A DNA stretch of 64,000 bases from Falsiroseomonas tokyonensis (lineage in GTDB: Bacteria; Pseudomonadota; Alphaproteobacteria; Acetobacterales; Acetobacteraceae): NCBI RefSeq assembly GCF_019024325.1, contig NZ_JAFNJS010000012.1, positions 1 through 64,000 on the forward strand, in the 5' to 3' direction. The first letter of the stretch is position 1; the number at the start of each line of letters is the position of its first letter. This document shows positions 6,097 through 36,062 of this stretch, piece by piece. The notes under the pieces were generated by a model that was not told the origin of the DNA, did no database searches, and saw only the letters and a list, made by a program, of their open reading frames with translations. Both the position numbers and the translations under genes were made by a program.

Positions 6097-6110
6097 TTGA
6101 TCCAGCGCAA
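6097..6110. promoter_or_regulatory. FixK/FNR-type box between ald and DUF2267
   Basis: TTGA-TCCAGC-GCAA, fitting the FixK2 consensus TTG(A/C)-N6-(T/G)CAA. The centre is about 66 bases from the ald start and 77 bases from the DUF2267 start, so one site could activate both divergent genes from about -41. Confidence 0.6.
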
Positions 6111-6180
6111 GGACCGACCGCGCCCGGTCGGTCCAAGCTTCGGAAACAGCGCATGGCGCGCTGATGCGGGGAGACCAGCC

Positions 6181-6618
6181 ATGGCCACCACCGGCCTCCA
6201 GGTCTGGGACAAGACCGTTCAGACCACCAATATCTGGCTTGATGAGATCATGGACGCGATCGGCCCGGACCGGCAATTCGCCTGGCACGTGCTGGGCGCC
6301 GTGCTGCGAACGCTGCGCGATCGCCTGCCGATCGAAATCGCCGTGCATCTCGGGGCGCAGTTGCCGCTTCTGGTGCGTGGTGCCTACTACGAGCAGTGGC
6401 ACGTCGGCGGCGAGCATCCGACGGGGCGCGGCATGGAGGAGTTCCTCGGCAGGGTCGCCGCCAGTCTTGGCGACACGCGTTCGGTCGCCCCGGCAGAGGC
6501 GACGGCGGCGGTGTTCGCGACGCTGGCGCGCCATGTCGATCCGGGGCAAGTGGCCAAGGTGCTCTCCGCCCTTCCAGAGGGCATCCGTCGCCCGTTGCGC
6601 GACGCCACGGCCCTCTGA
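6181..6618 (+). CDS. DUF2267 family protein
   Basis: 145 residues, full family length. Starts MATTGLQVWDKTVQTTNIWL, has the conserved AVHLGAQLPLLVRGAYYEQW and the C-terminal segment VFATLARHVDPGQVAKVLSALPEG that the copy at 1690 lacks. Helical, cytoplasmic, function unknown. GGGAGA precedes the ATG. It is divergent from ald across a region with a FixK-type box and is followed by a universal stress protein gene 210 bases later, repeating in altered order the Usp/DUF2267 pairing at 669-2019. Confidence 0.88.
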   Translation: MATTGLQVWDKTVQTTNIWLDEIMDAIGPDRQFAWHVLGAVLRTLRDRLPIEIAVHLGAQLPLLVRGAYYEQWHVGGEHPTGRGMEEFLGRVAASLGDTRSVAPAEATAAVFATLARHVDPGQVAKVLSALPEGIRRPLRDATAL

Positions 6619-6828
6619 TGAAGTCGATCGATCGGCGCCCTGCGACGAACGGAACGCGGCCATGCAGGGTGCCAGCCTGTCGCGACGACCGGCACCGGAT
6701 CGTGATGCCGCAGGGGGCCATGAGCCGTGTCTTGCGGTCCGACGCGGCGCTCAAGGCCGAGGCGCAGCAGTGGCTTCCCGCGCCCGTGGGTGCCGAAGCG
6801 CGCGCAGGTTTGGCGAACGGGGGTAGCC

Positions 6829-7674
6829 ATGCATATCACTGACATCCTCGTGCACCTCGACGCGACGGCGCAAGGACGACAACGGTTGCGGCTTGCTGCC
6901 GATCTCGCGCGGCGTCACCAAGCGCATCTGACCGGTCTGCACGTCTACGACATACTGATGCCGCTTGTCGTCGGCGATGCCGGCGGCAGCGCTGCATTGC
7001 TTGGTGAAATCATGGAACGCATGCGCCAGGACGCGCTGGCAGCGGCAACCGAGGTCGAGGCGGCGTTCCGCGAAAGGCTGCGGCAGGACGCATTGGCGGG
7101 CGAGTGGCGACTCGTCGAGGGCGCCGCGCCCGAGCAGGTCGCGCTGCACGGGCGCTACGCCGATCTGCTGGTGGTGGGCCAGGAGGATGGCGAGGGCGCG
7201 GCGACCAATGACGGCGCGGTCATCGCGGCCGCGCTCTTTTCCTCTGGCCGTCCGGTGCTGATCATGCCGCATTCGGGTCGTTTCGACACCATCGGGCGGC
7301 GGGTGCTGATCGGTTGGAATGCCGGCCGGGAGGCTGCGCGCGCCGTGCACGACGCGCTGCCGCTGATGGCCGGGGCCGAGAGCGTGACGGTGCTGGCCGT
7401 GAATCCGCGCACCGGCATCGGCAGGCATGGCGAGGAGCCGGGCGCGGACATTGCGCGGCACCTCGCGCGCCATGGGCTTCCGGTCACGGTGGAGCGCTGC
7501 GATGCGGCGGAGATCGGCGTCGGCGACATCCTGCTCAACCGCGCGGCCGACCTCGGCACAGACCTGATCGTGGTCGGCGCCTATGGCCATGCGCGCATCC
7601 GCGAGTTGGTGCTGGGCGGCGTGACGCGCACGCTGCTGCGCCAGATGACTGTGCCGGTCCTGATGTCCCATTGA
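6829..7674 (+). CDS. Universal stress protein, two UspA domains
   Basis: 281 residues, same length and design as the protein encoded at 669-1514: first domain from MHITDILVHLD, second ending GAYGHARIRELVLGGVTRTLL and PVLMSH. The two share long stretches such as EAAFRERLRQD and GREAARAVHDALPL, so they are paralogues. I placed the start at 6829, where the family begins, rather than at an in-frame ATG 102 bases upstream. The phosphoribosyltransferase gene follows after 34 bases, suggesting co-transcription. Confidence 0.93.
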   Translation: MHITDILVHLDATAQGRQRLRLAADLARRHQAHLTGLHVYDILMPLVVGDAGGSAALLGEIMERMRQDALAAATEVEAAFRERLRQDALAGEWRLVEGAAPEQVALHGRYADLLVVGQEDGEGAATNDGAVIAAALFSSGRPVLIMPHSGRFDTIGRRVLIGWNAGREAARAVHDALPLMAGAESVTVLAVNPRTGIGRHGEEPGADIARHLARHGLPVTVERCDAAEIGVGDILLNRAADLGTDLIVVGAYGHARIRELVLGGVTRTLLRQMTVPVLMSH

Positions 7675-7708
7675 GTCCGCCCCGCTCGACCTGTCCCGGA
7701 AGCAACCC

Positions 7709-8413
7709 GTGTTCCGCAGAGAGCCCCCCCTCTTCGCCAACCGCACCGAGGCCGGCCGTTTGCTTGCACGGCCCGTGCAGGCGCTCGGGCTCCGCGATCC
7801 GGTCGTCTATGCGCTGCCGCGCGGCGGCGTGCCGGTGGCCGTCGAGGTCGCGGCCGCACTCGGCGCTCCGCTGGACCTTGTGCTGGTGCGCAAGCTCGGC
7901 GCGCCGGGCCAGCCGGAACTGGCGATCGGCGCCGTGGCGGAGGGGGTAGGGACCGAGCCGGTGCTGAACGCCGAAATCGTCGCGGCGACCGGCGCGAGCG
8001 AGGCCTACATCGCCGCGGCCCGCGATCGCGAGATGGCCGAGATCGCGCGGCGGCGCGCACGCTACATGTCCGGACGCGCGGCGGTCGATCCGAAGGGGCG
8101 CACGGCGGTGGTGATCGATGACGGGCTGGCCACCGGCGCCACCGCCCGTGCCGCGCTGCATGCGCTTCGCCGGCGCGGCGCCGCGCGGATCGTGCTCGCC
8201 GTGCCGGTGGCCGCGGCCGAAGCGCTGGCTGCGATGCAGGGTGAAGCGGATGAGATGGTGTGCCTGGTGAAGACCAAGCTGTTCTCGGGCATCGGGGCCT
8301 TCTACCGTGACTTCCACCAACTGAGCGACGCGGAGGTCATCGCCGCGCTGGCCAGTCCAGAGCCCCCGGCCCAGGGCCGGCGCGTGCCCCGGCCCGGCGG
8401 CCGTACCGGGTGA
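7709..8413 (+). CDS. Phosphoribosyltransferase family protein
   Basis: 234 residues starting at GTG after GGAAG. Type I PRTase fold: the PRPP loop is TAVVIDDGLATGATARAAL, and an N-terminal motif VVYALPRGGVPVAVEVA and VLVRKLGAPGQPELAIGAVAEG mark the subfamily found beside stress genes and fused or linked to dienelactone hydrolase or erythromycin-esterase domains (for example Rv0571c in the DosR regulon). No base-binding partner domain is present, so the nucleobase substrate cannot be named. Confidence 0.88.
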   Translation: MFRREPPLFANRTEAGRLLARPVQALGLRDPVVYALPRGGVPVAVEVAAALGAPLDLVLVRKLGAPGQPELAIGAVAEGVGTEPVLNAEIVAATGASEAYIAAARDREMAEIARRRARYMSGRAAVDPKGRTAVVIDDGLATGATARAALHALRRRGAARIVLAVPVAAAEALAAMQGEADEMVCLVKTKLFSGIGAFYRDFHQLSDAEVIAALASPEPPAQGRRVPRPGGRTG

Positions 8414-8785
8414 AGCGGGGCGCGCTATTTGGTGCAGGAGCCGACGACGCCGCGCGCCGCTCGGGCGGGCGGTTCCCAAGCCGCGTCAACCTGCGAGCAT
8501 GTGTCGGAACGGGAGGTGGGAAAGGTCTGCTCTCAGGTGATCCTCGCCGACATCCGAAATACTGAATTGCGCGAGACGGCTGAACCGACTTGGCGCTCGC
8601 CGCGAGCAGCAACCGCGCTTGCGTTGAGGCCGCTAGCCGGCGACGCGGCGCGATCAGCGTTCCGTGATGCCGCGGCGGCTACATGCTTGACCTGCGTCAA
8701 CGCGGATGTGGCCACTCCGCGATTACGCTTCGGGCAGGCCGCCTCACGGGCATGTCTTGGACGCTAGCCAGAGGAGATCTGCGTC
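8414..8785. other. Intergenic region with hsp20 control site
   Basis: 372 bases with no supported gene; a 112-residue frame on the plus strand has no domain features. The only signal is the FixK-type palindrome at 8687-8700. AGAGGAG just before 8786 is the ribosome site of hsp20. Confidence 0.5.
8687..8700. promoter_or_regulatory. Perfect FixK/FNR palindrome before hsp20-groEL
   Basis: TTGA-CCTGCG-TCAA, an exact match to TTGA-N6-TCAA with matching fifth bases (TTGAC/GTCAA). Its centre is 92 bases before the hsp20 ATG. If used as a class II activator site (centre near -41), transcription would start near 8735 and leave a leader of about 50 bases. Confidence 0.65.
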
Positions 8786-9337
8786 ATGCGCGAACCCCAG
8801 AGCGTAACGAATTCGGAACAGAAGCCGGCGCAAGTGGGCGCTGTCCGAGCGGAGAGCCTCTTGCAGCCATTCGCGGCGCTGCGGAGCGAGATGGATCGGC
8901 TGTTCGACAGCTTCTGGCGCGGGATCGGGGCGGGCGGCGCGGCACGCCGCGCCGAGGCCGATCCGCAGCCGCTCTGGGGATTCGAAAGCGGCTTCGGCCT
9001 CGCGGTTCCGGCCATCGACGTGCTGGAGGCGGAGAAGGAATTCCGTATCAAGGCGGAGTTGCCGGGAATGGATGCCAACGACGTGGAACTCGCGCTTTCG
9101 GACGGCGTGCTGACGATCAAGGGAGAAAAGAAGGACGAGCACGAGGAGAAGACCGAGAACTATCGTTTCGCAGAGCGCCGCTTCGGTTCCTTCCGTCGTT
9201 CCTTCCAGCTTCCTCGTGGCATCGACCACGCGCGCGTCGCGGCGAGCTTCGACAAGGGCGTGCTGACGGTGACGCTGCCCAAGACGGCGGACGCAGCCGC
9301 GCAGCAGCGCAGGATCGACATCAAGCAAGGTCCGTGA
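8786..9337 (+). CDS. Hsp20/alpha-crystallin small heat-shock protein
   Basis: 183 residues, longer than usual because of a 75-residue N-terminal arm ([19 protein letters not shown] is typical of bacterial class A Hsp20). The alpha-crystallin domain runs from [21 protein letters not shown] to GVLTVTLPK. It is an ATP-independent holdase that keeps denatured proteins soluble. It sits 43 bases before a groEL paralogue, which could refold its clients, and behind a FixK-type box. HspX in the DosR regulon is the mycobacterial counterpart in role. Confidence 0.94.
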
Positions 9338-9380
9338 TCACCGGCCACCAGGCAGGAACAACATTCGAACGGAGGTGGTC

Positions 9381-11000
9381 GTGCCAGCCAAGCAGGTTCT
9401 GTTCCGCTCCGCGGCGCGGGAGAAAATCCTGCATGGCGCGGGGGCGCTGGCCGATGCCATCCGGGTGACGCTCGGGCCGCGGTCGAAATCCGTGCTGATC
9501 CAGAAGCACTGGGGCTCACCCATCATCTGCAACGATGGTGTGACCATCGCCAAGGAGTTCGAGCTGAAGGACGCCGAGGAGAATCTCGGCGCGCAGATGC
9601 TCCGGCAGGCCGCCGAGAGGACCGGCGATGCGGTGGGCGACGGGACGAGCACTGCGACCGTGCTGGCCCATGCCATCCTGGCCGACGGCATCCGCAACGT
9701 CGTCGCCGGGGCTAGCGCCGTGGAGTTGAAGCGCGGACTGGATCGAGCGACACGCGCGGCAGTCGAAGCGCTTCAGAGCCTGTCTCGTCCCGTCAAGACC
9801 CGCCGCGAGAAGGCACAGGTCGCCACCATCTCCGCCCATAACGACCCGGCGATCGGCGAGCTGGTGGCCGATGCGATGGAGCGGGTCGGCAATGAGGGCG
9901 TCATCACCGTCGAGGAGTCGAAGACGACGGAGACGACGCTCGAAGTCGTGGAGGGCATGCAGTTCGACCGTGGCTTCGTCTCGCCCTACTTCGTCAGCAA
10001 TGCCGAGCGCATGGAGGCTGAGCTCGAAGACGCGTTCGTGCTGCTCGCCGACCAGAAGATCCGCACCCTGACCGACCTGCTGCCGGTGCTGGACCAGGTG
10101 GTGAAGGCGGCCCGCCCGTTGCTCGTGGTGGCGGAGGATGTGGAGGCCGAGGCGCTGGCGACGCTGATCGTCAACCAGCTGCGCGGCGGGCTGAAGAGCT
10201 GCGCCGTGAAGTCGCCCGGCTTCGGGGACCGCCGCAAGGCGATGCTGCAGGACATCGCAGTGCTGACCGGCGGCATGGTGATTGCCGAGGAGATCGGCCT
10301 GAAGCTGGACGCCGTGCGCCTGCCGCAACTCGGCCGCGCGAAGCGCATCGTGGTGGACAAGGAAAACACGACCATCATCGGCGGCGCCGGCGACCGCGCA
10401 GCGATCGAGGCCCGCACGAAGGAGATTCGCCGCGAGATCGAGAAGGCGACCAGCGACTACGACCGCGAGAAGCTGCATGAGCGCCTCGCAAAGCTGGCGG
10501 GCGGCGTAGCGGTGATCCGCGTCGGCGCGCCGGCGGAGCCCGAGATGAAGGCAAAGGAGGCGCTGGACGACGCGATCAGCGCCACCAAGGCGGCGGTGGC
10601 AGAAGGCATCGTCCCCGGCGGTGGGCTGGCCCTGCTGCGCTGCATCGAGGCGCTGGCACCGGTGGAAGCCGAATGCCAGGGGGACGAGCGCACTGGCGTG
10701 CAGATCCTGCGCCGCGCGCTGGAGGCGCCGGCGCGCCAGATCGCCGAGAACTCCGCGGCCGACGGCGGTGTGGTGGTGGCCCGCATGCTGGAGGGCGCCG
10801 GCAACCGCGGCTTCGACGCAGCGCGCAAGGAATATGTGGATCTGGTCGAGGCCGGCATCATTGACCCGACCAAGGTGGTGCGGGTGGCGCTTGAGAATGC
10901 CGTCTCCGTCGCGAGCGTGCTGCTGCTGACCGAGGCCACGATGACCGAGTTGCCCGAGCCGCCCAAGGTGCGCCGCGAGCAGCCCGACCTGCCGCTGTGA
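9381..11000 (+). CDS. groL: GroEL-type chaperonin paralogue, no GroES neighbour
   Basis: 539 residues from GTG at 9381, six bases after GGAGG. Chaperonin landmarks present: [46 protein letters not shown] and the ATPase segment [23 protein letters not shown]. It is clearly GroEL but differs from housekeeping forms ([19 protein letters not shown] at the start; [12 protein letters not shown]) and its C-terminus ends [15 protein letters not shown], without the Gly-Gly-Met tail that lines the cavity. No groES lies nearby. Probably an accessory, stress-specific chaperonin working with the adjacent Hsp20. Confidence 0.95.
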
Positions 11001-11660
11001 CCGCACGCCGCCGCGTGCTGATCCTCGGCGCGGCGGGGCGCGACCCCCAGGACTTCAACCTGCTCTATCGCGACGATCCGGCCGTGGCGGTCGTGGCCTT
11101 CACCGCCGCGCAGAGCCTCGGCCATCGCTGCCCGCGTTGCTCCAGCACGGCGTGGACCAGGTGGTGTTCGCCTGCAGCGACGTCTCGCAGGCGCATGTCA
11201 TGCGACGCCCCGCGGTGGCGCTGACCGCCGGGCGCATTTCGCGCTGCTCGGGTCGCGGCGCACCATGCCGCCCGCGCGCCTGCCCGTGATCGCGGTCTGC
11301 GCGGGGCGAAGCGACCGAGGCAAGTCGCAGACCATGCGCTGGATCGCGGAACGGCGGCGCGCGCACGGCTTGCGCCTCGGCGTGGTCGGCACCCGCTGCC
11401 CTTTGACGACCTCGCGCGCCAGGCCGTGCAGTGATCCGCCAGCCTGGCAGAGGTGGATGCGCAGCGCCGATATCGTCCTCGTCGCCAAGGCCAATGCGGC
11501 GCCAGAGGCGGATGTGTGGCGGGTGATGGCGGCGGCGCGCCAGCTCGACCCGGTCGCCGCGCTGCTGCGAACTGCCTCCCGCGTGACGCTGCCCGATGCC
11601 GAAGCGGTGGCCCGACCAGCCGGCGCACGCTTGATCTGCATCATGGCAGCGACGCGCTGA
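10997..11660 (+). pseudogene. Broken cyclic 2,3-diphosphoglycerate synthetase-like GTPase
   Basis: The ATG overlaps the groEL stop. The first frame gives [39 protein letters not shown], then shifts; a second frame continues HGVDQVVFACSDVSQAHVM; a third gives LPVIAVCAGRSDRGKSQTMRW and later DIVLVAKANAAPEADVWRV. Read together they follow the order of cDPG-synthetase-like P-loop proteins, with the P-loop Gly replaced (SDRGKSQT) and large central deletions. Several frameshifts mean no full protein can be made. Confidence 0.8.
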
Positions 11661-11700: not shown

Positions 11701-13512
11701 ATGAACCCGCCCGTGCCTTCCCCGTCCGGCAATGCGGCACCGCTTGGCGGGCATGCCCGGATCGTGAAGCCCGTCGCGGGGGGGCGGGTTCCGCCGAACC
11801 TCGCCGACTATGCCGCCACCTGTCGTGACTTCAATTGGCCGGCCGCCCGCGCCCTGCTGGACGGGCTGCCGGGCGGGCGCGGCCTCAACATCGCGCATGA
11901 GGCGGTTGACCGCCATGCCGCGGGCCCGCGCGCCGACCGCGCTGCGCTGCGCTGGATCGGGCGTGGGCGGCATCGCGTCTTCACCTGGCGTGAGTTGCGT
12001 GACGAGACCAATCGCGTCGCCAACATGCTGCAGGTGCTCGGGCTCGAACACGGCGCGCGGGTCTTCGTGCTGGCTGGGCGGATCCCGGAACTCTACCTCG
12101 CGGTATTGGGCGCGCTGAAGGCGCGCTGCGTGGTCTGCCCGCTCTTCTCCGCCTTCGGACCGGAGCCGATCGCCATGCGGCTCGAGATCGGCGAGGCCGA
12201 CCTGCTGATCACCACCGAGGCACTCTACCGCCGCAAGGTGGAGGCGCTGCGCCACCGGCTGCCGCGGCTGCGGCATGTGGTGCTGGTCGGGGAGGCGGGC
12301 GCCACGACCGAGCTGCCCGGCACGCTCGACTGGCAGCGCCTGATGCAGGCAGCGGGCACGGCGTTCACCATCCCGCCCACCGACCCCGAGGACATGGCGC
12401 TTCTGCACTTCACCAGCGGCACGACCGGCCGGCCCAAGGGCGCCGTTCATGCGCATCAGGCGGTGGTGATGCACCATGTCACCGGCCGCTACGCGCTGGA
12501 CCTCCACCCTGACGACATCTTCTGGTGCACCGCCGATCCCGGCTGGGTCACCGGCACCAGCTACGGGATCATCGCGCCGCTGACCAACGGCGTGACCAAT
12601 CTGGTGGTGGAGGCCGAGTTCGACGCCGAGACCTGGTACGAGGTGCTGGAGCGCGAGCGCGTCAGCGTCTGGTACACGGCGCCGACTGCAATCCGCATGA
12701 TGATGAAGCTCGGTCGCGCGGCGCTGGCTGGCCGCGACCTCTCGGCACTGCGCTTCATGGCGAGCGTCGGCGAGCCGCTGAACCCCGAGGCGGTGCTCTG
12801 GGGCGTCGAGGCTTTCGGCATGCCTTTCCACGACAATTGGTGGCAGACCGAGACAGGCGGCATCATGATCGCCAATTACGCGGCGATGGATGTGAAGCCC
12901 GGCTCGATGGGCCGGCCGCTGCCCGGCATCACAGCCGCCATCCTGCGCCGCGACGAAGCCGGCGGGGTCGACGAGGTAACGCGGCCGATGATCGAGGGCG
13001 AGCTGGCGCTGAAGGCCGGTTGGCCCTCGATGATGCGCGGCTACCTCCGGGAGGAGGCGCGCTACCGCAAATGCTTCGCGGGCGAATGGTACCTCACCGG
13101 CGACCTCGCGATGCGAGACGAGGATGGCTATTTCTGGTTCATCGGGCGCGCCGACGATGTCATCAAATCCTCTGGCCACCTGATCGGCCCCTTCGAGGTC
13201 GAGAGCGCCCTCATGGAGCATCCGGCGGTGGCGGAGGCCGCCGTGATCGGCAAGCCCGATCCGATCGCCGGCGAGATCGTCAAGGCCTTCGTCGCGCTGA
13301 AGCCGGGCCATGAGGCGAACGAGGCGATGCGCCGCCAATTGCTCGGCCATGCGCGCACGCGGCTCGGCGCCGCCGTGGCGCCGAAGGAAATCGACTTCCG
13401 CGCCAACCTGCCCAGGACACGCAGCGGCAAGATCATGCGCCGGCTGCTGAAGGCCCGCGAGCTTGGCCTGCCCGAGGGCGACATCTCCACCCTCGAAAGC
13501 GACGAGCGATGA
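11701..13512 (+). CDS. Acetyl-CoA synthetase-like AMP-forming acyl-CoA ligase
   Basis: 603 residues. ANL-superfamily landmarks: [13 protein letters not shown] (ATP loop), [40 protein letters not shown] and the C-terminal catalytic lysine region [11 protein letters not shown]. It activates acetate or a related short acid to acyl-CoA through an acyl-adenylate. The WWQTETGG motif favours acetate or propionate. The gene overlaps the E1alpha gene by ATGA, so it leads a five-gene operon (ligase, E1alpha, E1beta, E2, acyl carrier protein). I start at 11701 after a G-rich site; an upstream GTG at 11665 is possible. Confidence 0.92.
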
Positions 13513-28054: not shown

Positions 28055-28530
28055 CGCACTGAGCGAGGCCTTGGTGTCGCTGGCGGCGAAGCATGGCCGC
28101 TACGGCCATCGCCGCATCACCGCGTTGCTGCGGGCCGAGCGCTGGCGGGTGAGCGCCAAGCGTTTGGATCGCATCTGGCAGCGCGAGGGGCCCAAGGCGC
28201 CGCGGCGGCAGCCGAAGCCGGGCGGCCGTGGCTGAACGATGGCTGTTGCGTGCGTCTGTGGCCATGCTGGACGGGACATGGCTGGGCGTATGACTTCGTC
28301 CAGGACCGGACGCATGGCGGCAGGCGGTTCCGCATGCTGACGGTGATCGACGCGTACACGCGGGAGTGCCTGGCGATCGTGGTGGAGCTGCGGCTGACTT
28401 CCGACGACGCGCTGCAGGTGCGGTAGATCTGTTCATCGGGCGGGGTCCGCCTGGGCCTATCCGCCGTGACAACAGGCCGGTGTCCGCGGCGAAGGTGTTG
28501 CGCGGCTGGCTCGGTCGGCTTGGGGGCACG
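28055..28530 (+). mobile_element. IS3-family transposase (OrfB) remnant
   Basis: Broken frames give AAKHGRYGHRRITALLRAE, then WAYDFVQDRTHGGRRFRMLTVI, DAYTRECLAIVVE, DDALQV, a stop, and DLFIGRGPPGPIRRDN, SAAKVLRGWLGRLG. These follow IS3 (IS407/IS51-like group) OrfB, including the first catalytic Asp area (VIDAYTRE) and the second (RRDN, from RSDNGPEF). Stops and shifts make it dead; the end with the last Glu is missing. Confidence 0.8.
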
Positions 28531-28658
28531 CCACCGTCCTTGCGCGCGCCGCCATCGCGCTCGGCTTGGCGGAGCCATTTCCAGATCCGCTGCGCCGTCG
28601 GCTCGAACTCCCCGGCAAGCTCCTCGGGGGTTCGGCCTGGTCGGACCGACTCCACCAT
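28530..28658 (-). mobile_element. Inverted IS3 OrfA fragment
   Basis: On the minus strand MVESVRPGRTPEELAGEFEP then TAQRIWKWLRQAERDGGARKDGG follows the helix-turn-helix OrfA of IS3 elements. It meets the OrfB fragment tail to tail at about 28530, so either an inversion or two insertions occurred. Confidence 0.75.
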
Positions 28659-28930
28659 CTGGCGCTTGTGGACAGCGTCGTTGTCGCGGATCAGGTGCAG
28701 GTCAAACTCGGCCGGGTCTGCCTGTGGATCAGCCGCAGCGATCGGATGAACTCGGCGGCGCGGTGGCGAAGCATGCGCTGGCTGATCACCCTGTTCGCCT
28801 TTACTTCGAGGGCGGCGAACAGCGTGGTTGTGCCGTGGCGCTTGGTCTTAGGTCATGGTCGTGCAACGGACGCACTTCATCGGAAGCTCTGGCCGAGTGT
28901 GCTCGGGCCAGACCGATCAATCAAGCCAGG
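28659..28930 (-). mobile_element. IS630-family transposase remnant joined to the IS3 OrfA
   Basis: Minus-strand pieces: ALDRSGPSTLGQS.., KTKRHGTTTLFAALEVKANR, VISQRMLRHRAAEFIRSLR, then after a shift EFDLHLIRDNDAVHKRQ, which is the IS630 catalytic block (..LHLIVDNYATHK..). At KRQ the reading passes straight into the IS3 OrfA start (RQMVES..), so two unrelated elements were joined by recombination. Confidence 0.75.
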
Positions 28931-29279
28931 CAAGAACAGTTGCCCCACCGCATCCATTATGATTGGCTGGCGCGCGCTGACGACCTGTGTGTTGATCCAT
29001 GCCGCTTCAGGCTCGACAAGTATTCGTCGGGCGTGATTCCGGCTGACCGCGCAGGATCGAATTTATAATGATGTCTGGCAGGTGTCACATGGCATCAGCT
29101 GCCACACCCAAATGTAGCGATCAAACCCTTCATTTCGAATCTGCCGATAATATGATGACGAAGATCGCAAGATCATAGCCAATCCATTAGAATATTACAG
29201 AGTCGATTGTATTCGGATATGGTTTGGCTTCTGTGGAGATCCCGATATCGGCCACGACGCGCCCTGAGAGGGGAGACAG
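28931..29279. other. A+T-richer strip upstream of fixJ
   Basis: From about 29060 the base composition becomes clearly richer in A+T (for example AATATGATGACGAAGATCG and TTAGAATATTACAGAG) than the surrounding island. No gene is supported. It presumably carries the fixJ promoter; I see no FixK palindrome in it. The shift follows directly after the IS remnants, so it may be imported DNA or simply a promoter. Confidence 0.5.
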
Positions 29280-29966
29280 ATGGTTGACCGGACAGCCTGC
29301 CCGCTCATCGTTCATTTGATCGACGACGATGCCGACGTTCGCTGGGGTATCGAGACGCTTCTCTCCTCAGCCGGCTTCAAGACGCAAAGCTGGCCCGACG
29401 CAGCATCGTTTCTGAATGCCCTACCTGAAATAAACCAGGCTCAGATCGGTTGCGTACTGACCGATGTGCGGATGCCCGAGATGGATGGGCTGGATCTGTT
29501 GCGTCGACTCACTCAATTGCGATTTGCACGGCCCGTCCTGCTCGCGACGGGTCAAAGTGACATTGCTCTGGCTGTTCGTGCCATGAAGGCAGGGGCCTTC
29601 GATTTCATCGAGAAGCCGTTCGAGGAGAATGCCCTTCTTACGGCCATTGCCGAGGCTTTCGCCTTGGCGGGCACTGTGCGCCCGCCTCCACGACATGACA
29701 TCGTGGATGCGGCAAGGCGGATCGCCTTGCTGTCGCCGCGCGAACGCGAGGTGTTAGACCTCGCGATGACAGGCATGCCCAGCAAAGTCATTGCGCATGA
29801 GCTGAACATCAGCCCACGCACGGTCGAGGTGCACCGCCTGCGGCTCATGGCCCGGCTGGGTGTCGGAAGCCTTGCAGAGGCCGTGCGGTTGTCCGTCCTG
29901 GCCGAACTTGGTGACGGCGGAGCGGCCAGCCGCATATCGCCGCCTGATCAAGAGCGTGAAGGCTGA
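29280..29966 (+). CDS. fixJ: FixJ-type two-component response regulator
   Basis: 228 residues. Receiver domain with acidic triad DDD (15-17), phospho-acceptor D62 in CVLTDVRMPEMDG, T90 and K112 (FIEKPFEENAL), the FixJ/NtrC-like pattern. LuxR-type helix-turn-helix at about 150-210: LLSPREREVLDLAMTG, ELNISPRTVEVHRLRLMARLG. In rhizobia FixJ, phosphorylated by the oxygen sensor FixL, activates fixK. Good GAGGGGAGA ribosome site. fixL (31681) and a fixK-like gene (35246) are downstream on the same strand. Confidence 0.9.
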   Translation: MVDRTACPLIVHLIDDDADVRWGIETLLSSAGFKTQSWPDAASFLNALPEINQAQIGCVLTDVRMPEMDGLDLLRRLTQLRFARPVLLATGQSDIALAVRAMKAGAFDFIEKPFEENALLTAIAEAFALAGTVRPPPRHDIVDAARRIALLSPREREVLDLAMTGMPSKVIAHELNISPRTVEVHRLRLMARLGVGSLAEAVRLSVLAELGDGGAASRISPPDQEREG

Positions 29967-30067
29967 TCGCGGTTCTGCCGGGATTCCCACGCTCTGCTGA
30001 TCCAGCGCAATGCAGCCGTGTCTTTGCCCCGCATCATGCGCGCTGGTCTGAAGCGCGGAGGCCCATC

Positions 30068-31183
30068 TTGGCAGTTGATCAGCAGGGCAAGCAGTCTGAC
30101 ATGTCGTCCGACGTCGTATCGGCCCCGGATGGCCAAGCTTGCACCCTGCAGGACACATGCTGTGCATCGCCCGACGGCGCGTCAGCCGCCTTTGAGCATG
30201 TGCTCGAATGCTGTTCCTCCCTAGCCGGCGGCTTGGTTACTCTCTGGCTAAGCCCTCAGGCCGCCTCACGCGGTCCCCCATGCGCTGCCGCCCATCGGAC
30301 GCCCGAGCTGGTTCGCAATGCCGTGCGGCGCGCCAGGCTGCTTCAGCACGCCGGCTGGGCCCCGACACTTCTGTCGCTGCCCCTGCGGGGGAATGGTAGT
30401 CCCCTCATTTCCTGCGCCGCGGTGCGGTTGGAATGCAGTAACGGCGAAATGTGGGGGTTGATGGTCGTGACCCGCCCGGCCGGCATGGCGGATTCCATAG
30501 CTGGCCGCAGCAGGCTCATCTCCGCGGCGAGACTCCTGGCCGACCGTCTGCAGGTCGAAGACATCTGCTGTGCCCTTCGCAGCGAGCTCCGCCTGCGGGA
30601 CAGCAATGCGATCGAGGCGGTGGTGCGGCGACAGGAAGCCAATCACCGGATCAAGAATCAGCTGCAGATCGTTGCCTCGGCCCTGCTGCTGCAAGCCAGA
30701 TCGGAGGTGGCCATTGGCGATGGCCGGGCCCAGTTGTTGCTCGCAGCGCAACGTGTTCATGCGATCGCGGAGATCCACAAGCTGCTTCAGGATACGGATG
30801 TGCCGGACATGTCCGATCCCGAGCCGTATCTGCGCAGCCTCGTCGCGAATATCAGCCTGGCCACTACGGCGGCCGGCACGCGGCCGGTGCAGATAGACGT
30901 CGAGCCAGGGCTTCGGATGATTGCGCCGCGTCTGTTGAGTCTTGGTCTCGTCACCACCGAGTTCCTCACCAATGCGCTGAAGCATGGCGTCGGCGCGATC
31001 CGGGTGGAGGTTCGCGCGGCGGGGCGGCACGCGCGCCTGTCCGTGGCCAGCGAGATTTTGTCGGATGCAAACCCGACACCGCGCATGGGCGGCCTCGGCC
31101 TGTCCCTGGTCCGCTCCCTCTCGATCGCGACCGGCCACCGCCGCCTCGGCGAACGCGACCTTGAGTTCAGTGCCATACTTTGA
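30068..31183 (+). CDS. HisKA_2/HWE-type sensor histidine kinase
   Basis: 371 residues from TTG at 30068, six to seven bases after GGAGG; ATG at 30101 is the alternative. N-terminal 180 residues resemble a GAF-like sensor without a membrane helix and contain paired cysteines (CTLQDTCCAS, LECCSS). The kinase core has EANHRIKNQLQIVASALLLQ (H-box of HisKA_2 kinases), then the ATPase region LVTTEFLTNALKHG and GGLGLSLVRSL. Located between fixJ and fixL, it may feed a second signal, perhaps redox, into the same circuit or into the degenerate receiver at 34510. Confidence 0.85.
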   Translation: MAVDQQGKQSDMSSDVVSAPDGQACTLQDTCCASPDGASAAFEHVLECCSSLAGGLVTLWLSPQAASRGPPCAAAHRTPELVRNAVRRARLLQHAGWAPTLLSLPLRGNGSPLISCAAVRLECSNGEMWGLMVVTRPAGMADSIAGRSRLISAARLLADRLQVEDICCALRSELRLRDSNAIEAVVRRQEANHRIKNQLQIVASALLLQARSEVAIGDGRAQLLLAAQRVHAIAEIHKLLQDTDVPDMSDPEPYLRSLVANISLATTAAGTRPVQIDVEPGLRMIAPRLLSLGLVTTEFLTNALKHGVGAIRVEVRAAGRHARLSVASEILSDANPTPRMGGLGLSLVRSLSIATGHRRLGERDLEFSAIL

Positions 31184-31680
31184 ATGTCGCATATCGCACG
31201 TCTGGATGACCTACGCGCTGGCTGCGTCTCGAACCCTATCGGCTCGCGACGCGTCGCATGTCCGCGAGCCAACGGTGGATCAGTGGCGGCGAGCGATCTG
31301 GGAAGGCTCGCCCTGCGGCAGCGGGTTTCGCTTTGAGTGAACCATGTGACAGTCAATCGCGGACTTTGCCCCTGCGCGTCCTAGAGAAGGCCAAGGCTGC
31401 ATTCACCATTCTGCGGCGGATCAACCGGACGTGCGTCGACAGACCAATCCGTCTGGCGTCTTGTTTCGCGGTGTCCGGGTCAGCCAGCCCGGGATACGCC
31501 AGTCGCGCACCTGCGCGCCCTGCAAGGGCACGGGGCGTTCCGCGCCTTGCCGTCGCACCAATCGGCCGAAGCCGCGCAGCAGGGCTCAGCGGGCTTACTG
31601 AGGACACGTTGTACCTACTCGCATGACCGCTCAGGGGATCGTAGGCTAGTCCAGAACCGCCACCCTTACAGGAATGCACC
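31184..31680. other. Gap between the HisKA_2 kinase and fixL
   Basis: About 500 bases without a supported gene. A 122-residue plus-strand frame exists but has no domain and poor codon pattern. No clear FixK site. It should contain the fixL promoter; a short AGGA precedes the TTG start of fixL. Confidence 0.5.
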
Positions 31681-34407
31681 TTGGCTGGTTTGACGGACGG
31701 CGCTCACGGGGTATCCGGGCCTGGGAAGGCGGAATTACCGATCCTCCGTCGCTTTCGCACACGCCTCGCGCATCTGCTCATCGCCATATTCCTGCCGCTG
31801 ATCGTGCTTTCTGCCGGGCTTGGCGTGATGATGGCGGTTGGCCAGCGCAACGACGCGCTACGACGCCTGAGCGAGACGTCACGTGTCCTGCATGTCGCGG
31901 TGAATCGAGAATTTGCCCTGATGATCGCGACGCTCGAAGCGCTCGCGACCTCGCCATCTGTCGACGACGCTCTGGCGGCTGGACCCGGAGCGCCGGGGAC
32001 CTTGGCCTTCCACGAGCAGGCGACGGCGATGGTGACCAACGGCCATGGGGTACCCTTCGTAGTCTGGCTGCTGCCGGCACAGGGGGCGCGGCCTGTCGTC
32101 AACACCCTTCTGCCGGCGACAGCGGTGCCTCCGCCCCTGGCGGATCTACACTTTCCGGCGCGGCCCATCGGGGAGCCCCCGGCGCCCGACATCGCCTACC
32201 GCCAGGTGCTGGCGACCGGCGAACCCTACATCGGTGATCTCGTGCAAGGACCCGGTGATGGGTTCGCCGTCATCGTGAGTGTGCCGGTGCGCCGCGCAGG
32301 GCGCGTGGCGGCGGTGCTGGGCGCCGGCCTGAAGCCTGCCGCATTGGGGCTGGCGATGAGCCGACAATTGCCCGACGGGCCAGGCATCGCCGTGCTCGTG
32401 GACCGCGGCGGCGTGATCGTGGCGCGGAGCCACGATGAGGACCGCTTCGTCGGCAAAGCCGCCAGCGCCGAGACCGTCGCGCGCCTGTCAGATCCGCAGG
32501 CGCGATCGGGGACGGTCGCGGTTGCCTCATGGGAAGGTACCCCATTCTACGCGTCCTTCCGCCGGCTCAACTTGGCCGGTTTCACCGTGGGCTTCGGAGA
32601 GGCAAAATCCGTCGTCGACGCGCCGCTTTTGCGCGTAACGTGGCTGGCCGGTACAGGTGCGGCGCTCGCCTTGGTCCTTGCCGTCGGTGCGGCGCTCTGG
32701 CTGGGCCGTCGCCTGGGCCGCGAGATCGAGGCGCTCGGCCAGGACGCCGCGCTGCTTGTTTTGCGCAAGCCGGTTCCGGTGCGGGACGAACCGGTTGTCC
32801 AGGAAGTTGCCGCGGCACGCCGGGCGCTCGTCGAGGCGGTTACCGCCGCGATCGAGAGCGAGGCACAGTTGCGTCTCTTTATCGCCCGGGCGCCGGCGGC
32901 CATCGCCATGTTCGACAATCAGATGTCGTATCTCGCGGCAAGCCAGCGCTACTTGCTTGACTACGATATCGCGGTGGCGGGGCCAGAGGCTCTGCTGGGA
33001 CGCAGCCATTACGAGGTATTTCCGGATATCCCGGAACACTGGCGGGCCATCCATCGGCGCGTCCTGGCGGGCGAGACGCTGGACGCCGCCGAGGACCGGT
33101 TTCCACGTGCCGATGGCCGCGTCGACAGCGTCCGCTGGGAAATGACGCCCTGGCACCATCCAGACGGATCGATCGGGGGGGCGGTGCTTTTCTCCGAGGT
33201 GGTGACCGAGCGGAACAGGGCGAACCAGGCGCTACGGGAGAGCGAAGCGCGGCTGCGCTCCATCCTGGCGACGGTACCCTCCGCCATGATCATCATCGAC
33301 GACCAAGGCACCATTGAATCCTTCAGCGTCACGGCGGAGCGCATGTTCGGCTGCACGGCGGCGTATGCGGTCGGCCGAAACATCTCGATGCTCATGCCCG
33401 AGCCGGACCGGACGAGGCACGACTCGTATCTCGCCCGCTACCGCGAAACCGGCAAACGCCACATCATCGGCACCGTGCGAACCCTGATGGGACGAAGGCT
33501 GGACGGCTCGGAGTTTCCGATGGAGCTTTCAGTCGGCGAGGTCGAAGTTTCCGGGCGCCGGCTCTTCACGGGATTCATCCAGGACCAGACGGAGCGCGAA
33601 GGGGCTCAGCGCCAGTTGCAGACGGTCCAGGATGAGCTTCTGCATGTCTCGCGCCTGAGCGCGGCTGGCGAGATGGCCTCGACGCTTGCGCATGAACTGC
33701 ATCAGCCACTGACTGCCATTGCGACATCCATCGGTGCGGCCAAGCGGCTGTTGGCCGGCACGTCCTTCGGCAGCGGCGAGGACGGGCCTGTTCAACGGAA
33801 GGTTCTTGAGGCCCTGGAGCGGGCCGCGGCGCAGTCGCTGCGCGGCGGCCAGATCATTCGGCGCCTTCGTGAATTCGTTGCCAAGGGCGAGTCAGAGCAC
33901 CTGCCCGAAGACATCGGCCGCCTGATCGAGGAAACTCGGCCGCTGATTCTGGCCGGCGTTCGGTCCGGCCGGGTGCAGGTCTCCTTCCATCTTGAACCGG
34001 GGCTGAAGCCGGTCCTGATCGACAGGATCCAGATCCAGCAGGTGATCCTGAACCTTACCCGGAACGCCGCGGAGTCCATGGACGAGGGTGGGGCGCTGAG
34101 CCCCATGAGAAACGAGGTCCGGGTCGGCACTCGGACGCCGGAAGAAGGCTGGGTGGAAGTCAGCGTGGCAGACCGGGGCCCCGGCCTCGCGCCCGAAGTG
34201 GCCACGAAGCTGTTCACCGCCTTCGTATCGACCAAGGCGGGCGGGATGGGGGTGGGCCTGTCGATCTGCCGGACGATCGTCGAAGCCCATGGCGGCCGCA
34301 TCTGGGCCATGCCCAACCCGGATGGCGGTACGGTATTTCGCTTTACATTGCCGACCATGCCGCCCGAGACATGCGCCAATGTCGATCGCATAACCGGGCT
34401 TGCCTGA
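31681..34407 (+). CDS. fixL: FixL-type haem-PAS oxygen sensor kinase with extra sensor domains
   Basis: 908 residues. Order: membrane helix (33-54), Cache-like extracytoplasmic domain (60-310), second helix (318-341), PAS at about 395-510, haem PAS at about 520-640, HisKA with H671 (GEMASTLAHELHQPLTA), HATPase to the end (GMGVGLSICRTIVEAHGG). Haem pocket residues known in Bradyrhizobium FixL are kept at matching spacing: proximal His (RHDSY, H580), R586, H594 (RHIIG), R600 and L616; I238 of Bradyrhizobium is V here. Without O2 it should phosphorylate FixJ. TTG start inferred from AGGA. The periplasmic Cache part is extra compared with rhizobial FixL. Confidence 0.92.
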   Translation: MAGLTDGAHGVSGPGKAELPILRRFRTRLAHLLIAIFLPLIVLSAGLGVMMAVGQRNDALRRLSETSRVLHVAVNREFALMIATLEALATSPSVDDALAAGPGAPGTLAFHEQATAMVTNGHGVPFVVWLLPAQGARPVVNTLLPATAVPPPLADLHFPARPIGEPPAPDIAYRQVLATGEPYIGDLVQGPGDGFAVIVSVPVRRAGRVAAVLGAGLKPAALGLAMSRQLPDGPGIAVLVDRGGVIVARSHDEDRFVGKAASAETVARLSDPQARSGTVAVASWEGTPFYASFRRLNLAGFTVGFGEAKSVVDAPLLRVTWLAGTGAALALVLAVGAALWLGRRLGREIEALGQDAALLVLRKPVPVRDEPVVQEVAAARRALVEAVTAAIESEAQLRLFIARAPAAIAMFDNQMSYLAASQRYLLDYDIAVAGPEALLGRSHYEVFPDIPEHWRAIHRRVLAGETLDAAEDRFPRADGRVDSVRWEMTPWHHPDGSIGGAVLFSEVVTERNRANQALRESEARLRSILATVPSAMIIIDDQGTIESFSVTAERMFGCTAAYAVGRNISMLMPEPDRTRHDSYLARYRETGKRHIIGTVRTLMGRRLDGSEFPMELSVGEVEVSGRRLFTGFIQDQTEREGAQRQLQTVQDELLHVSRLSAAGEMASTLAHELHQPLTAIATSIGAAKRLLAGTSFGSGEDGPVQRKVLEALERAAAQSLRGGQIIRRLREFVAKGESEHLPEDIGRLIEETRPLILAGVRSGRVQVSFHLEPGLKPVLIDRIQIQQVILNLTRNAAESMDEGGALSPMRNEVRVGTRTPEEGWVEVSVADRGPGLAPEVATKLFTAFVSTKAGGMGVGLSICRTIVEAHGGRIWAMPNPDGGTVFRFTLPTMPPETCANVDRITGLA

Positions 34408-34509
34408 GATCGTGGCAGACTGCGTGACACGTTGGTCGACCGCATCCGATACGGGCACTGGCTGCCCGCTTTCCTCAATCCAGCCATTGATGAGCTCTGG
34501 CCACGCGAC

Positions 34510-34890
34510 CTAGGCGAGCAAAGCCGTTCTGATGGCAGCCAGGATCTCATCGACCCGGAACGGGTCGACCTGAACCAGGGTCAGCGATGACTGCTCCGCG
34601 CGCCGACGGGGCCGGTGCGCCTCGGCCGCGAGGACCACGACCGTCACGGGTCCGTCGCCCTGTACCAGATGCTCCGTCAGCCGTGCATAACTGGCTTGGT
34701 CGCGGTGCGTCGGGTCGAGCAGCACGCAATGCGGCTGGCCGCGCAAGACCGTCCCGGTCGCGGCCGGAAACTCCCATACCGACGTGAAGGCGCGCGACGT
34801 AATGCCTTCCGATTCCATCAGCAGCAGCAGTGCTTGGCGGACTGCCACATCCGCGCTGATGATCGAAACCTGCGGTTTCGCGGGGCCCAT
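34510..34890 (-). CDS. Degenerate single-domain receiver
   Basis: 126 residues covering one receiver fold: VSIISADVAVRQALLLLMESEGITSRAFTS, the Asp in HCVLLDPTHRD, then TVVVLAAEA and VQVDPFRVDEILAAIRTAL. The lysine that normally precedes Pro-Phe is Asp (VDPF for KPF), and only one acidic residue remains of the usual pair. No output domain. It may act as a phosphate sink, a decoy for FixL or the HisKA_2 kinase, or be decaying. It faces fixL and shares an upstream region with fixK that holds a FixK-type box. Confidence 0.7.
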   Translation of the reverse strand: MGPAKPQVSIISADVAVRQALLLLMESEGITSRAFTSVWEFPAATGTVLRGQPHCVLLDPTHRDQASYARLTEHLVQGDGPVTVVVLAAEAHRPRRRAEQSSLTLVQVDPFRVDEILAAIRTALLA

Positions 34891-34896
34891 CGGTCT

Positions 34897-35109
34897 TCAG
34901 CAAGGTTGGCGGAAGACTCGGGCGCAGCATTTGGCAAATGCTGGCCTGCCCTCCGCGCTCATACCGATGGATGCGTGCGGCGCGGCGGCGTGGACGCTGG
35001 TTACCGTCAGCAGATCCATGACGAGGGCCTCCTCCGGCGTCAGGCGATGCCGTACTGCCGTGCTGGCGCACGGCGCCGGAGGAGCCTCGCGCATGCTGCC
35101 AAAAGGCAT
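34897..35109 (-). CDS. Small hypothetical protein upstream of the receiver
   Basis: 70-residue frame ending seven bases before the receiver start. Contains VRHRLTPEEALVMDLLTVTSV and a Cys-containing end (AKCCARVFRQPC). I recognise no family. No good ribosome site is visible, and a FixK-type box overlaps its immediate upstream bases, so it may be leader sequence rather than a gene. Confidence 0.3.
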   Translation of the reverse strand: MPFGSMREAPPAPCASTAVRHRLTPEEALVMDLLTVTSVHAAAPHASIGMSAEGRPAFAKCCARVFRQPC

Positions 35110-35110
35110 C

Positions 35111-35124
35111 TTGATTCAGATCAG
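35111..35124. promoter_or_regulatory. FixK/FNR-type box between receiver and fixK
   Basis: TTGA-TTCAGA-TCAG on the plus strand (one mismatch to TTGA-N6-TCAA; in FNR form TTGAT-N4-ATCAG). It lies 122 bases before fixK and about 220 bases before the receiver. It could mediate FixK autoregulation. Confidence 0.55.
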
Positions 35125-35245
35125 CAGCGCGGCGCACATCGCTGAGCGCGGGGAGGACTACGTAGTTCTACGAGCAGGAAATTCCCGGAATAGGGCGCGC
35201 AGTCAGTCATTGCTAACCATGTTGGTGCCTTGAGGAGCATCGACC

Positions 35246-35971
35246 ATGCAAACGGTGTCGCTGGCCCGCAGCCCTGCTATCGGCTTCCCGTTCCCCGTCG
35301 CCAGCCGGTCGGGACACACCACCTCGCCAGCACAGCTTTCCGGGCGGCCGATGCGCTGCGCACGGGGGACGTTGATCTATGCCGAGGGGGATAGCGTGCA
35401 GGATCTGTACAAGGTCGTCTCGGGCAGCATCCGCACCTACCGGACCCTGTCGGACGGACGCCGGCTAATCGCCTCCTTCGCGCTGCCGGGAGAACTCTTC
35501 GGCCTGGACGGCATCGGAACGCATCGTTGCGCGGCGGAGGCCGTGACGGATGCGGTGATGATCGCTTTTGCGCGGAAGGAGATCGAGGCTTGTGTTGAGC
35601 GTGATCCGCTCGCAGCCAAATGCTTCCAGATGTTCGCGCTGGAGAAGCTGATCTCCGAGCAGGATCGCTGCGTGCTGCTCGGACGCAAGACGGCCAGCGA
35701 GCGCGTCGCGTGTTTTCTTCTGGACCTGGCGGACCGCAGCGAGGGCCATCCGCACCTGATCGACCTGCCGATGTCCCGCTACGATATCGGGGACTATCTG
35801 GGGTTGAGCACCGAGACCGTCAGCCGGTCTCTCACCTGCTTTCGCAAGCGCGGCATCCTTGCAGACCGGGGCCCGCACCGCGTCGAAGTTCTGGATCGCG
35901 ATGCGCTGGAAGATGCGGCCTCCGGTATCGAGACGCCTGCGACCGACTGCGCCTGCCTACGACCCGTCTGA
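35246..35971 (+). CDS. fixK: CRP/FNR-family regulator, FixK-like
   Basis: 241 residues. Cyclic-nucleotide-binding fold at about 40-130 (GTLIYAEGDSVQDLYKVVSGSI), dimer helix and C-terminal winged helix with recognition segment LGLSTETVSRSLTCFRKRGIL. Glu190, Ser193 and Arg194 match the E..SR set that reads TTGA/TCAA in FNR and FixK proteins. There is no N-terminal iron-sulphur cysteine cluster, so it should not sense oxygen itself but be controlled by FixLJ. Two nearby sites (35111, 36049) fit its expected target. Start preceded by GAGGAG. Confidence 0.88.
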   Translation: MQTVSLARSPAIGFPFPVASRSGHTTSPAQLSGRPMRCARGTLIYAEGDSVQDLYKVVSGSIRTYRTLSDGRRLIASFALPGELFGLDGIGTHRCAAEAVTDAVMIAFARKEIEACVERDPLAAKCFQMFALEKLISEQDRCVLLGRKTASERVACFLLDLADRSEGHPHLIDLPMSRYDIGDYLGLSTETVSRSLTCFRKRGILADRGPHRVEVLDRDALEDAASGIETPATDCACLRPV

Positions 35972-36048
35972 GCGAACGGCCAGTCTGCCCTGCAGGACAC
36001 GCCACCGCATGGCTGATGGCTAGCCGGGTTGCAGGAAGTGGCGTGCCG

Positions 36049-36062
36049 TTGACCTGGCTCAA
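36049..36062. promoter_or_regulatory. Perfect FixK box before the phasin-like gene
   Basis: TTGA-CCTGGC-TCAA, exact match to the consensus. The centre is about 65 bases before the ATG at 36121, so with a class II position transcription would begin about 24 bases before the start codon. Confidence 0.65.

Follow-up and report, generated by a model that had tools for sequence, protein, structure and literature searches.

Five described low-oxygen systems come closest to the locus reported here; the papers on them are cited throughout for selected passages. In Caulobacter crescentus, a non-nitrogen-fixing alphaproteobacterium, FixLJ-FixK is thought by its authors to have arrived by transfer, displaced FnrN and come to use the FnrN sites, cco among them (PMC2908626, PMC4999443, PMC7078487). 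In Burkholderia dolosa, FixLJ induces fixK at low oxygen, also outside nitrogen fixation, and affects biofilm, motility and persistence in infection (PMC5234846). The lxa locus of Burkholderia cenocepacia (BCAM0275-0323), which has been tied to anoxic persistence, is a low-oxygen block of about 50 genes with six universal stress proteins (Usp), alpha-crystallin, BON, and a zinc alcohol dehydrogenase (ADH) beside an MBL protein (PMC6127331, PMC9733578, PMC9104464). The micro-oxia table of Bradyrhizobium diazoefficiens, where FixK2 operates, contains Usp, Hsp20, GroEL2, phasin, CBS, host-attachment and MBL proteins, together with cbb3 oxidase and hemN2 (PMC6515984). DosR (DevR) of Mycobacterium tuberculosis and OsdR of Streptomyces coelicolor place an oxygen-sensing kinase and a response regulator close to the core regulon, which includes Usp and zinc dehydrogenases (PMC5069765). 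We compared these systems with bases 1-64000 of contig C4 of Falsiroseomonas tokyonensis (hereafter the window, about 1% of a 6.16-Mb genome in 59 contigs), in which fixL, fixJ and fixK homologues lie among stress genes and TTGA-N6-TCAA boxes.

With a probability of about 0.7, we consider the window to hold an lxa/DosR-type low-oxygen survival island that uses the common FNR/FixK box language and has its own oxygen-sensor cascade. Its block of Usp, Hsp20, BON/CBS, zinc ADH and MBL genes agrees with the list for lxa in PMC6127331, and the gene set recalls both that locus and the B. diazoefficiens table. The differences from each system were also clear. FixLJ-FixK is common to all four Caulobacterales studied, whereas here it occurs in one species of a genus with FnrN relatives, and inside a stress island. 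The regulator proposed for lxa, BCAM0049, and the fixLJ homologues BCAL2210/2211 are both encoded outside that locus; the window, in contrast, encodes its own fixLJK. B. diazoefficiens is a symbiotic nitrogen fixer, whereas our genome gave no nifH match above cut-off, in a search made for nifH alone. The DosR and OsdR systems use another kinase, regulator and site, and no CRP/FNR step is described in the cited passages of PMC5069765; an acsA-pdh-ACP (acyl carrier protein) operon like that of the window is also present on Streptomyces and Rhodococcus plasmids. In B. dolosa, the fixK locus tag is distant from fixLJ. An earlier reading, made from the sequence only, had held FixLJ-K to be normally described in nitrogen fixation or denitrification, a view that the precedents in Caulobacter (PMC4999443, PMC2908626) and B. 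dolosa (PMC5234846) do not support.

The circuit genes fixJ, fixL and fixK all lie on the + strand and together span 6.7 kb, in agreement with the 7 kb given by the sequence-only reading. Their order, with the intervening genes and the FixJ-type site discussed below, is as follows.

29280-29966, + strand: fixJ, response regulator; best PDB match FixJ 5xso (E 2e-47 over residues 11-208)
30068-31183, + strand: HisKA_2/HWE-type histidine kinase between fixJ and fixL (PF07568, E 2e-11)
31681-34407, + strand: fixL, with Cache-like, PAS_4, haem PAS, HisKA and HATPase regions
34510-34890, - strand: single-domain receiver-like protein between fixL and fixK (no Pfam match; FixJ model E 7e-4)
35159-35172, + strand: FixJ-type site TACGTAGTTCTACG before fixK, found by aligning fixK upstream regions
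35246-35971, + strand: fixK, with HTH_Crp_2 and cNMP_binding domains; best PDB match FixK2 4i2o (E 3e-40)

FixJ has a receiver plus an HTH domain, and its nearest structure is FixJ itself. In FixL, whose Cache-like region scored under the Pfam cut-off, the second PAS domain aligned over its full length to Bradyrhizobium FixL 1dp6 (E 9e-43). All four residues that we take to be H200, R206, H214 and R220 of the Bradyrhizobium protein were kept, so that a haem-type PAS with proximal His and pocket Arg precedes HisKA and HATPase, and haem binding is predicted. FixK lacks the Fe-S motif CX2CX7C and has a TETVSR helix of the E..SR type, which fits the definition of FixK in PMC2908626 (a CRP/FNR protein with an E..SR helix and without Fe-S cysteines). 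No second CRP/FNR protein with an ETxSR helix was identified in the genome. The others identified were a paralogue with a VEHANR helix and one further CRP-like protein without E..SR; two weaker HTH matches over the Pfam cut-off (C45:413111 and C1:288787) showed no match to FixK at E 0.001. In most of the relatives fetched, fixL and fixJ are directly adjacent, while here the HWE/HisKA_2 kinase intervenes. The AlphaFold model of the small protein at 34510-34890 (pLDDT 78) gave receiver domains as Foldseek matches. Its homologues sit between fixJ and fixK in two relatives (L105 and L106). It has no 4-Cys motif, and could be a FixT-like inhibitor of FixL (FixT: PMC7078487).

The upstream region of fixK contained a site that resembles published FixJ targets. 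Twelve of 15 printed fixK upstream regions were aligned, and they shared in outline TACGTAG-TTCTACG followed about 11 bp on by TTCCCGGAATA. TAC and T were invariant in the aligned sites, and the intervening G nearly so. The window site is similar to the FixJ motifs GTAGTTTCCC and GTAMGTAG from SELEX (systematic evolution of ligands by exponential enrichment) and to the CSNAATWT element near -33 quoted in PMC4999443. Judged by its letters, fixK thus has a promoter with a FixJ site. Further FixJ targets were also sought, and the site pattern gave five matches in the genome against four in a reversed control. Only the site of fixK is credible, since the genome-wide matches are otherwise at control level.

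Six boxes were recognized in the window. Coordinates are given without strand, and each distance is measured from the box centre to a start picked by eye or by homology and calculated from the coordinates.

6097-6110: box TTGATCCAGCGCAA, 66.5 bp before ald and 77.5 bp before the DUF2267 gene
8687-8700: exact box TTGACCTGCGTCAA, 92.5 bp before hsp20
11631-11644: sixth box TTGATCTGCATCAT, 63.5 bp before acsA
23052-23065: box ATGATCTGCGTCAA, 67.5 bp before the DUF6064 gene
35111-35124: box TTGATTCAGATCAG, 128.5 bp before fixK, a candidate for autoregulation
36049-36062: exact box TTGACCTGGCTCAA, 64.5 bp before a gene for a 131-aa protein

The box at 11631 was absent from the sequence-only reading. 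Its other five boxes were all found where it had placed them, outside our list of genes, and two of them are exact, as it had claimed. The shared spacing of 65-67 bp that it had noticed was likewise confirmed for ald, DUF6064 and the 131-aa gene; the distances to DUF2267, hsp20 and fixK fall outside this group. The FixJ-type site follows the 35111 box at a distance of 48 bp, and degenerate counterparts were seen by eye before fixK in three relatives (L104, L109 and L093), which would fit autoregulation of fixK as a candidate.

These boxes were more concentrated in the window than expected. Genome-wide there were 18 exact TTGA-N6-TCAA sites compared with six for the reversed control, two of them within the window (P 0.013; shuffles expected 0.17). 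A consensus drawn partly from window sites, TTGAYCYRSRTCAA, was dropped because of its circularity, in favour of the pattern TTGATSYKSATCAA (up to two mismatches), derived from ccoN promoters of our own and related genomes only. This pattern was chosen after the window sites had been seen, and so is independent in its letters, but not fully blind. It matched the genome 364 times, against 46 for the reversed control. In the window it gave 15 matches at 13 places, compared with 2.25 in shuffles and 3.66 expected from the rest of the genome, and recovered all six boxes. The Poisson P was 7e-6 for the 15 matches. Because two-strand matches at one place are not independent, we also give the value for the 13 places against the same expectation (1e-4). 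Seven matches fell in non-coding DNA, at the five boxes of the sequence-only reading and at 35230 and 39185, whereas 60 simulated runs gave 0.42.

Chance clustering, in which FixLJK and the stress genes would be mere neighbours and the boxes coincidental, is therefore very improbable against this enrichment and against the conservation of the acsA and hsp20/groEL boxes in sister species and other genera. What speaks for it is that one-mismatch sites are common (14 in the window against 5.6 expected) and that six of the 13 pattern places lie inside called genes, 11631 among them. In our view the latter box is not really coding, because the surrounding stretch, 10997-11660, resembles what is left of a disrupted 464-aa gene. 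In the sister species G014 that gene is open, with an exact box TTGACCTGGGTCAA upstream.

Several boxes were also conserved in relatives. We examined 22 proteobacterial acsA loci, namely those of the window, five other genera, three sister species and 13 plasmid records. A box with at most one mismatch lay 60-90 bp before acsA in ten, where about 0.2 would be expected from the background density of 0.112 per 330 bp; for the three sisters, the rule applied was slightly stricter. The distances were 63.5 bp in the window, 64.5 in sister G014 (TTGATCTGCGTCAT), 63.5 in G044, 60.5 in G085, 73.5 in G097, 72.5 in G068, 69.5 in Sulfitobacter, 62.5 in Tropicibacter, 66.5 in Burkholderia savannae and 89.5 in Paraburkholderia phymatum. 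Several of these starts are uncertain, and alternative starts would change some distances. In sisters G008 and G004, acsA lies behind another gene, and the boxes instead precede groEL (TTGACCTGGGTCAA, G008) or hsp20 (TTGACCTGAGTCAA, G004); hsp20/groEL boxes were present in G085 and G097 as well. Homologues of the 131-aa gene occur in four other of 100 family genomes, and both of those examined had upstream boxes (TTGATCTGGATCAG in G099 and TTGACTCACATCAG in G069). The conservation tests covered acsA, hsp20/groEL, ccoN and the 131-aa gene, and for all four the promoter boxes recurred in some relatives, as in an FNR/FixK regulon. Given this concentration of likely sites in the window, and the conservation of several of them in related bacteria, low oxygen probably switches the cluster on. 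The window enrichment, the recurring acsA and hsp20/groEL footprints and the FixJ-type site before fixK together make it plausible that the FixL-FixJ-FixK circuit and the boxes belong together.

The boxes are not confined to the island. Four genes on other contigs have an exact box upstream, namely ccoN (at about 91.5 bp from the start conserved in relatives), hemN (at 67-70 bp), a CBS-BON gene (at 71.5 bp) and a gene for an 88-aa protein without known family (at 63.5 bp); ccoN (TIGR00780), ccoO and hemN (TIGR00538) scored above their NCBIfam cut-offs. The ccoN box was first read as 67 bp from its start, within the ~65-bp group, and was removed from that group when the start conserved in relatives gave the longer distance. 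This box is exact in our genome and in all 13 same-genus genomes that have ccoN, and also in G017 and G019 of the family. Farther from ccoN, G018 has an exact site and G016 a one-mismatch site only. Among five other members of the class, the site was exact but distant in G026, had one mismatch in G031 and was absent in G034, and G023 and G025 offered no anchor. Since exact boxes also precede ccoN, hemN and the CBS-BON gene elsewhere, the box of the island is also that of the ordinary FNR/FixK core. The low-oxygen stress regulon of the sequence-only reading is thus supported in its link to FixLJ-FixK, by the enrichment, the footprints and the FixJ-type site, while its description as self-contained had to be given up.

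The sharing of ccoN and hemN boxes raises the question of whether this is simply a FixK regulon of the Bradyrhizobium or Caulobacter kind, with no special island and with targets that happen to adjoin the regulator. The likeness of the gene set to the micro-oxia table of PMC6515984 would agree with that. However, the window, with 1% of the genome, holds 15 of the 364 pattern matches, and on several plasmids acsA is surrounded by a similar set of genes, so that we regard this explanation as quite improbable.

A stronger competitor concerns the protein that reads the boxes. They may be real FNR-type sites read mainly by the VEHANR paralogue (C1:198168-198761, in which the cysteine cluster is reduced to CAAC), with FixK controlling something else or little. 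A match of like strength to this paralogue occurs in our genome and in all 13 same-genus genomes with ccoN, and in G009, which is without ccoN, there was none; the VEHANR helix itself was read in our genome, G001, G002, G006, G008 and G011 only. The ccoN boxes, moreover, are kept in genomes that yielded no FixK and no FnrN. On the other hand, N replaces the S of E..SR in the paralogue helix, whereas FixK has the canonical helix and is located inside the island. We consider this alternative unlikely, although less so than the two above.

The distribution of the regulator pointed to a probable foreign origin for FixLJK. In all eight Roseomonas-group relatives at 52-59% identity, fixL and fixJ homologues lie within about 5 kb of fixK. 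By comparison, the best FixK match across 14 same-genus genomes was 37%. The best same-genus FixL match among the matches listed (G009) reached 42% identity in residues 455-902 and 48% where the kinase alone was aligned, far below the match in G017 (53%, E 5e-142). Six same-genus genomes (G004, G005, G010, G012, G013 and G014) encode an FnrN with CX2CX7C and LETVSR, and G003 has a candidate FnrN of like match strength. G006 and G008 carry another type with TPETLSR, and G008 also one with RRETVSR. In a tree of 36 rows, the window FixK fell in the Roseomonas-group clade (99/98), apart from same-genus FnrN (100/100), with a bootstrap that was not fully settled. Sisters G014, G008 and G004 keep the acsA operon and island boxes without a close FixLJK, and two of them have an Fe-S FnrN, for which reason FixLJK probably replaced a native reader. 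In the simplest reading of these sequences, the boxes came first, and a FixLJK acquired later replaced their reader. A Roseomonas mucosa plasmid (pTT14-2, L093) has a FixK homologue in two pieces at 20001-20498, annotated only as a cyclic nucleotide-binding protein; genes for Usp and CBS proteins adjoin it, and one CBS gene has a box 68 bp upstream.

A survey of 50 genomes in 2016 found that Caulobacterales and Rhizobiales have FixLJ, whereas Rhodospirillales had FnrN only, and it proposed the same replacement for Caulobacterales (PMC4999443); displacement of FNR by FixK in Caulobacter was also proposed in PMC2908626. The Roseomonas-group fixLJK loci extend the known range of FixLJ. What is new here is an lxa-like low-oxygen island, patchy in distribution and with an acsA operon often on plasmids, that has its own FixLJ-FixK in Rhodospirillales, where that survey had only FnrN. 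Judged by the titles of the top-ranked literature matches for Roseomonas with FixL, FixJ and FixK, none centred on Roseomonas, and no work was found that brings together FNR and the horizontal transfer of a gene cluster with Usp, Hsp20 and phosphoenolpyruvate synthase.

We therefore propose the following mechanism. Loss of oxygen from the FixL haem would cause FixL to phosphorylate FixJ, and phosphorylated FixJ would bind the TACGTAG-TTCTACG site and switch on fixK. FixK dimers would then bind the TTGA-N6-TCAA boxes, often about 65 bp before starts (near -41.5 if the leader is about 25 nucleotides). In the island, FixK would activate ald/DUF2267, hsp20-groEL, acsA-pdhABC-acp, DUF6064 and the 131-aa gene, and outside it ccoN, hemN and the CBS-BON gene. 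Sister species most likely read the boxes with FnrN or another CRP/FNR protein, and a Roseomonas-type FixLJK, probably transferred in, would have taken over as the reader in this species.

A number of observations weigh against this interpretation, in addition to the pattern places inside called genes. None of the three circuit proteins reached its NCBIfam equivalog cut-off: FixJ scored 219.9 bits against 255, FixL 466.7 against 850, with residues 455-893 alone matching, and FixK 175.9 against 300 for the Caulobacter FixK model, which was yet the best of the library. Twelve of the 22 acsA loci had no box at 60-90 bp, some of them with an uncertain start or with acsA behind another gene. Besides G008 and G004, these included G095 (a box about 0.8 kb upstream, before another gene), two Leisingera loci (a two-mismatch site only), Ciceribacter and three Cupriavidus loci (boxes farther upstream), and Methylocystis, Azospirillum and Photobacterium. 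Under a box rule that was stricter than the one of the sequence-only reading and failed to list even the 6097 box, there was no box before fixJ, fixL or the universal stress genes of the window, nor in the loci of four FixK relatives (L104, L107, L108 and L109) or in the entire 30.6-kb R. rosea contig. Of the three fixK upstream regions left out of the alignment, inspection by eye showed TACGTA in L113 and no clear site in L115 or G099. Island boxes are present in G008 although no FixK or FnrN was found there, and the VEHANR paralogue is encoded in our own genome as well. Outside the window, only four of 16 exact sites were promoter-like (ccoN, hemN, CBS-BON and the 88-aa gene). The other 12 had no promoter-like placing and lay mostly within called genes.

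The island comprises Usp, DUF2267, CBS-BON, ferric reductase-like, ald, phosphoribosyltransferase, hsp20, groEL, acsA-pdh-acp, ABC/FtsX/HlyD, DUF6064, P-type ATPase, zinc ADH, baeRF12 and MBL genes. Genes were called from lists of open reading frames and GC3 and backed by Pfam and NCBIfam scans. Those assigned coordinates are listed below.

4919-6037, - strand: ald, alanine dehydrogenase (Pfam AlaDh_PNT N and C, E 2e-48 and 5e-82; start ATG 6037 by eye)
6181-6618, + strand: DUF2267 gene (PF10025, E 8e-32)
6829-7674, + strand: universal stress protein, start approximate (PF00582)
7709-8413, + strand: phosphoribosyltransferase (PF00156)
8786-9337, + strand: hsp20 (PF00011)
9375-11000, + strand: groEL (PF00118; NCBIfam GroEL over cut-off)
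11701-13512, + strand: acsA, AMP-forming acetate--CoA ligase (NF003313, 910 bits, cut-off 729)
13509-14495, + strand: pdhA, E1 alpha (TIGR03182, 424 bits, cut-off 394)
14492-15490, + strand: pdhB, E1 beta (open reading frame; homologues 74-93% identical in the same operon)
15487-16638, + strand: E2 dihydrolipoamide acyltransferase (PF00198, PF00364, PF02817)
16635-16880, + strand: acyl carrier protein after E2 (PF00550, 25.2 bits, cut-off 20.8)
22329-22991, - strand: DUF6064 membrane protein, start by eye (PF19540, E 1e-51)
36120-36515, + strand: 131-aa protein of no known family (homologues 41% and 35%)
37615-38598, + strand: zinc alcohol dehydrogenase (TIGR02822, 337 bits, cut-off 283)
38598-39113, + strand: Host_attach/baeRF12 protein (PF10116)
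39691-41289, - strand: MBL-beta-CASP hydrolase (PF10996, PF07521)

The 131-aa protein had been called phasin-like; it gave no Pfam phasin match even at E 5 and no NCBIfam match at E 1, so that name was dropped.

The acsA-pdhA-pdhB-E2-ACP operon is little-studied. Its ligase matched 42 plasmid records at E 1e-100, of which 15 were fetched, and all nine that were annotated showed acsA-pdhA-E2-ACP with ACP after E2; E1 alpha and beta are apparently fused in four from Roseobacteraceae. The neighbours on plasmids mostly include some of Usp, Hsp20, CBS, DUF2267, ppsA, phosphofructokinase, zinc ADH and MBL genes, and a 60-kb Leisingera plasmid with the operon has its own Crp/Fnr gene. On a Sulfitobacter sp. 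SK012 plasmid (L198, 5791-18291), the acsA-pdh operon is adjoined by genes for acetate kinase and phosphate acetyltransferase and by an operon for an F-type ATP synthase, neighbours fitting for an energy-survival role. Streptomyces (L208) and Rhodococcus (L209) plasmids carry acsA-pdhA-pdhB-E2-ACP, with Usp near the former and ppsA and phosphofructokinase near the latter; no FNR-type box preceded acsA at either locus. Orthologues of acsA (E 1e-150 or lower) were patchy, in six of 100 family genomes and four of 15 same-genus genomes, our own counted in both. The operon was seen in Alphaproteobacteria, Betaproteobacteria and Actinobacteria, and Gammaproteobacteria gave a ligase match only. Near-identical plasmid copies of 23000-40000 were sought with megablast, which returned P-type ATPase fragments only.

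A broader interpretation is possible, although we hold it as doubtful. The window may represent one horizontally mobile, modular low-oxygen energy-survival island found in several classes of Proteobacteria and in Actinobacteria, with acsA-pdhA-pdhB-E2-ACP as its core. Pyruvate would be oxidised to acetyl groups, which AcsA, run backwards, would release as acetate while making ATP from AMP and pyrophosphate. Such an island would owe its portability to the use of any oxygen regulator already present in the host, be it FnrN, another CRP/FNR protein or a DosR-like one; here it would have captured a complete FixL-FixJ-FixK cassette, which then also took over the ccoN and hemN sites of the host.

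Some other features of the window and genome were recorded. The G+C content is 65.2% in 28000-36600 and 70.6% in 1-22000. A stretch at 28038-28658 (- strand), between the P-type ATPase gene and fixJ, resembles by eye an IS3-type transposase fragment and had no Pfam match. Beside the island, 42156-63878 holds an exopolysaccharide-like gene cluster, judged from translations. Elsewhere in the genome (C57:164745-182757), two NifH-family matches of about 200 bits lie under the nifH cut-off. We take them to be, probably, bacteriochlorophyll reductase subunits, so the host may be an aerobic phototroph.

For the genus, the finding means a likely swap of regulators in which the sites were kept and the reader changed from FnrN, a direct Fe-S sensor, to FixLJK, a haem-sensor cascade. 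Such a swap was proposed in PMC4999443 for Caulobacterales; here, sister species with and without FixLJK can be compared directly. The tie between the acsA-PDH-ACP operon and oxygen-type boxes in several genera makes this operon a candidate for the route by which aerobes save energy when they survive anoxia.

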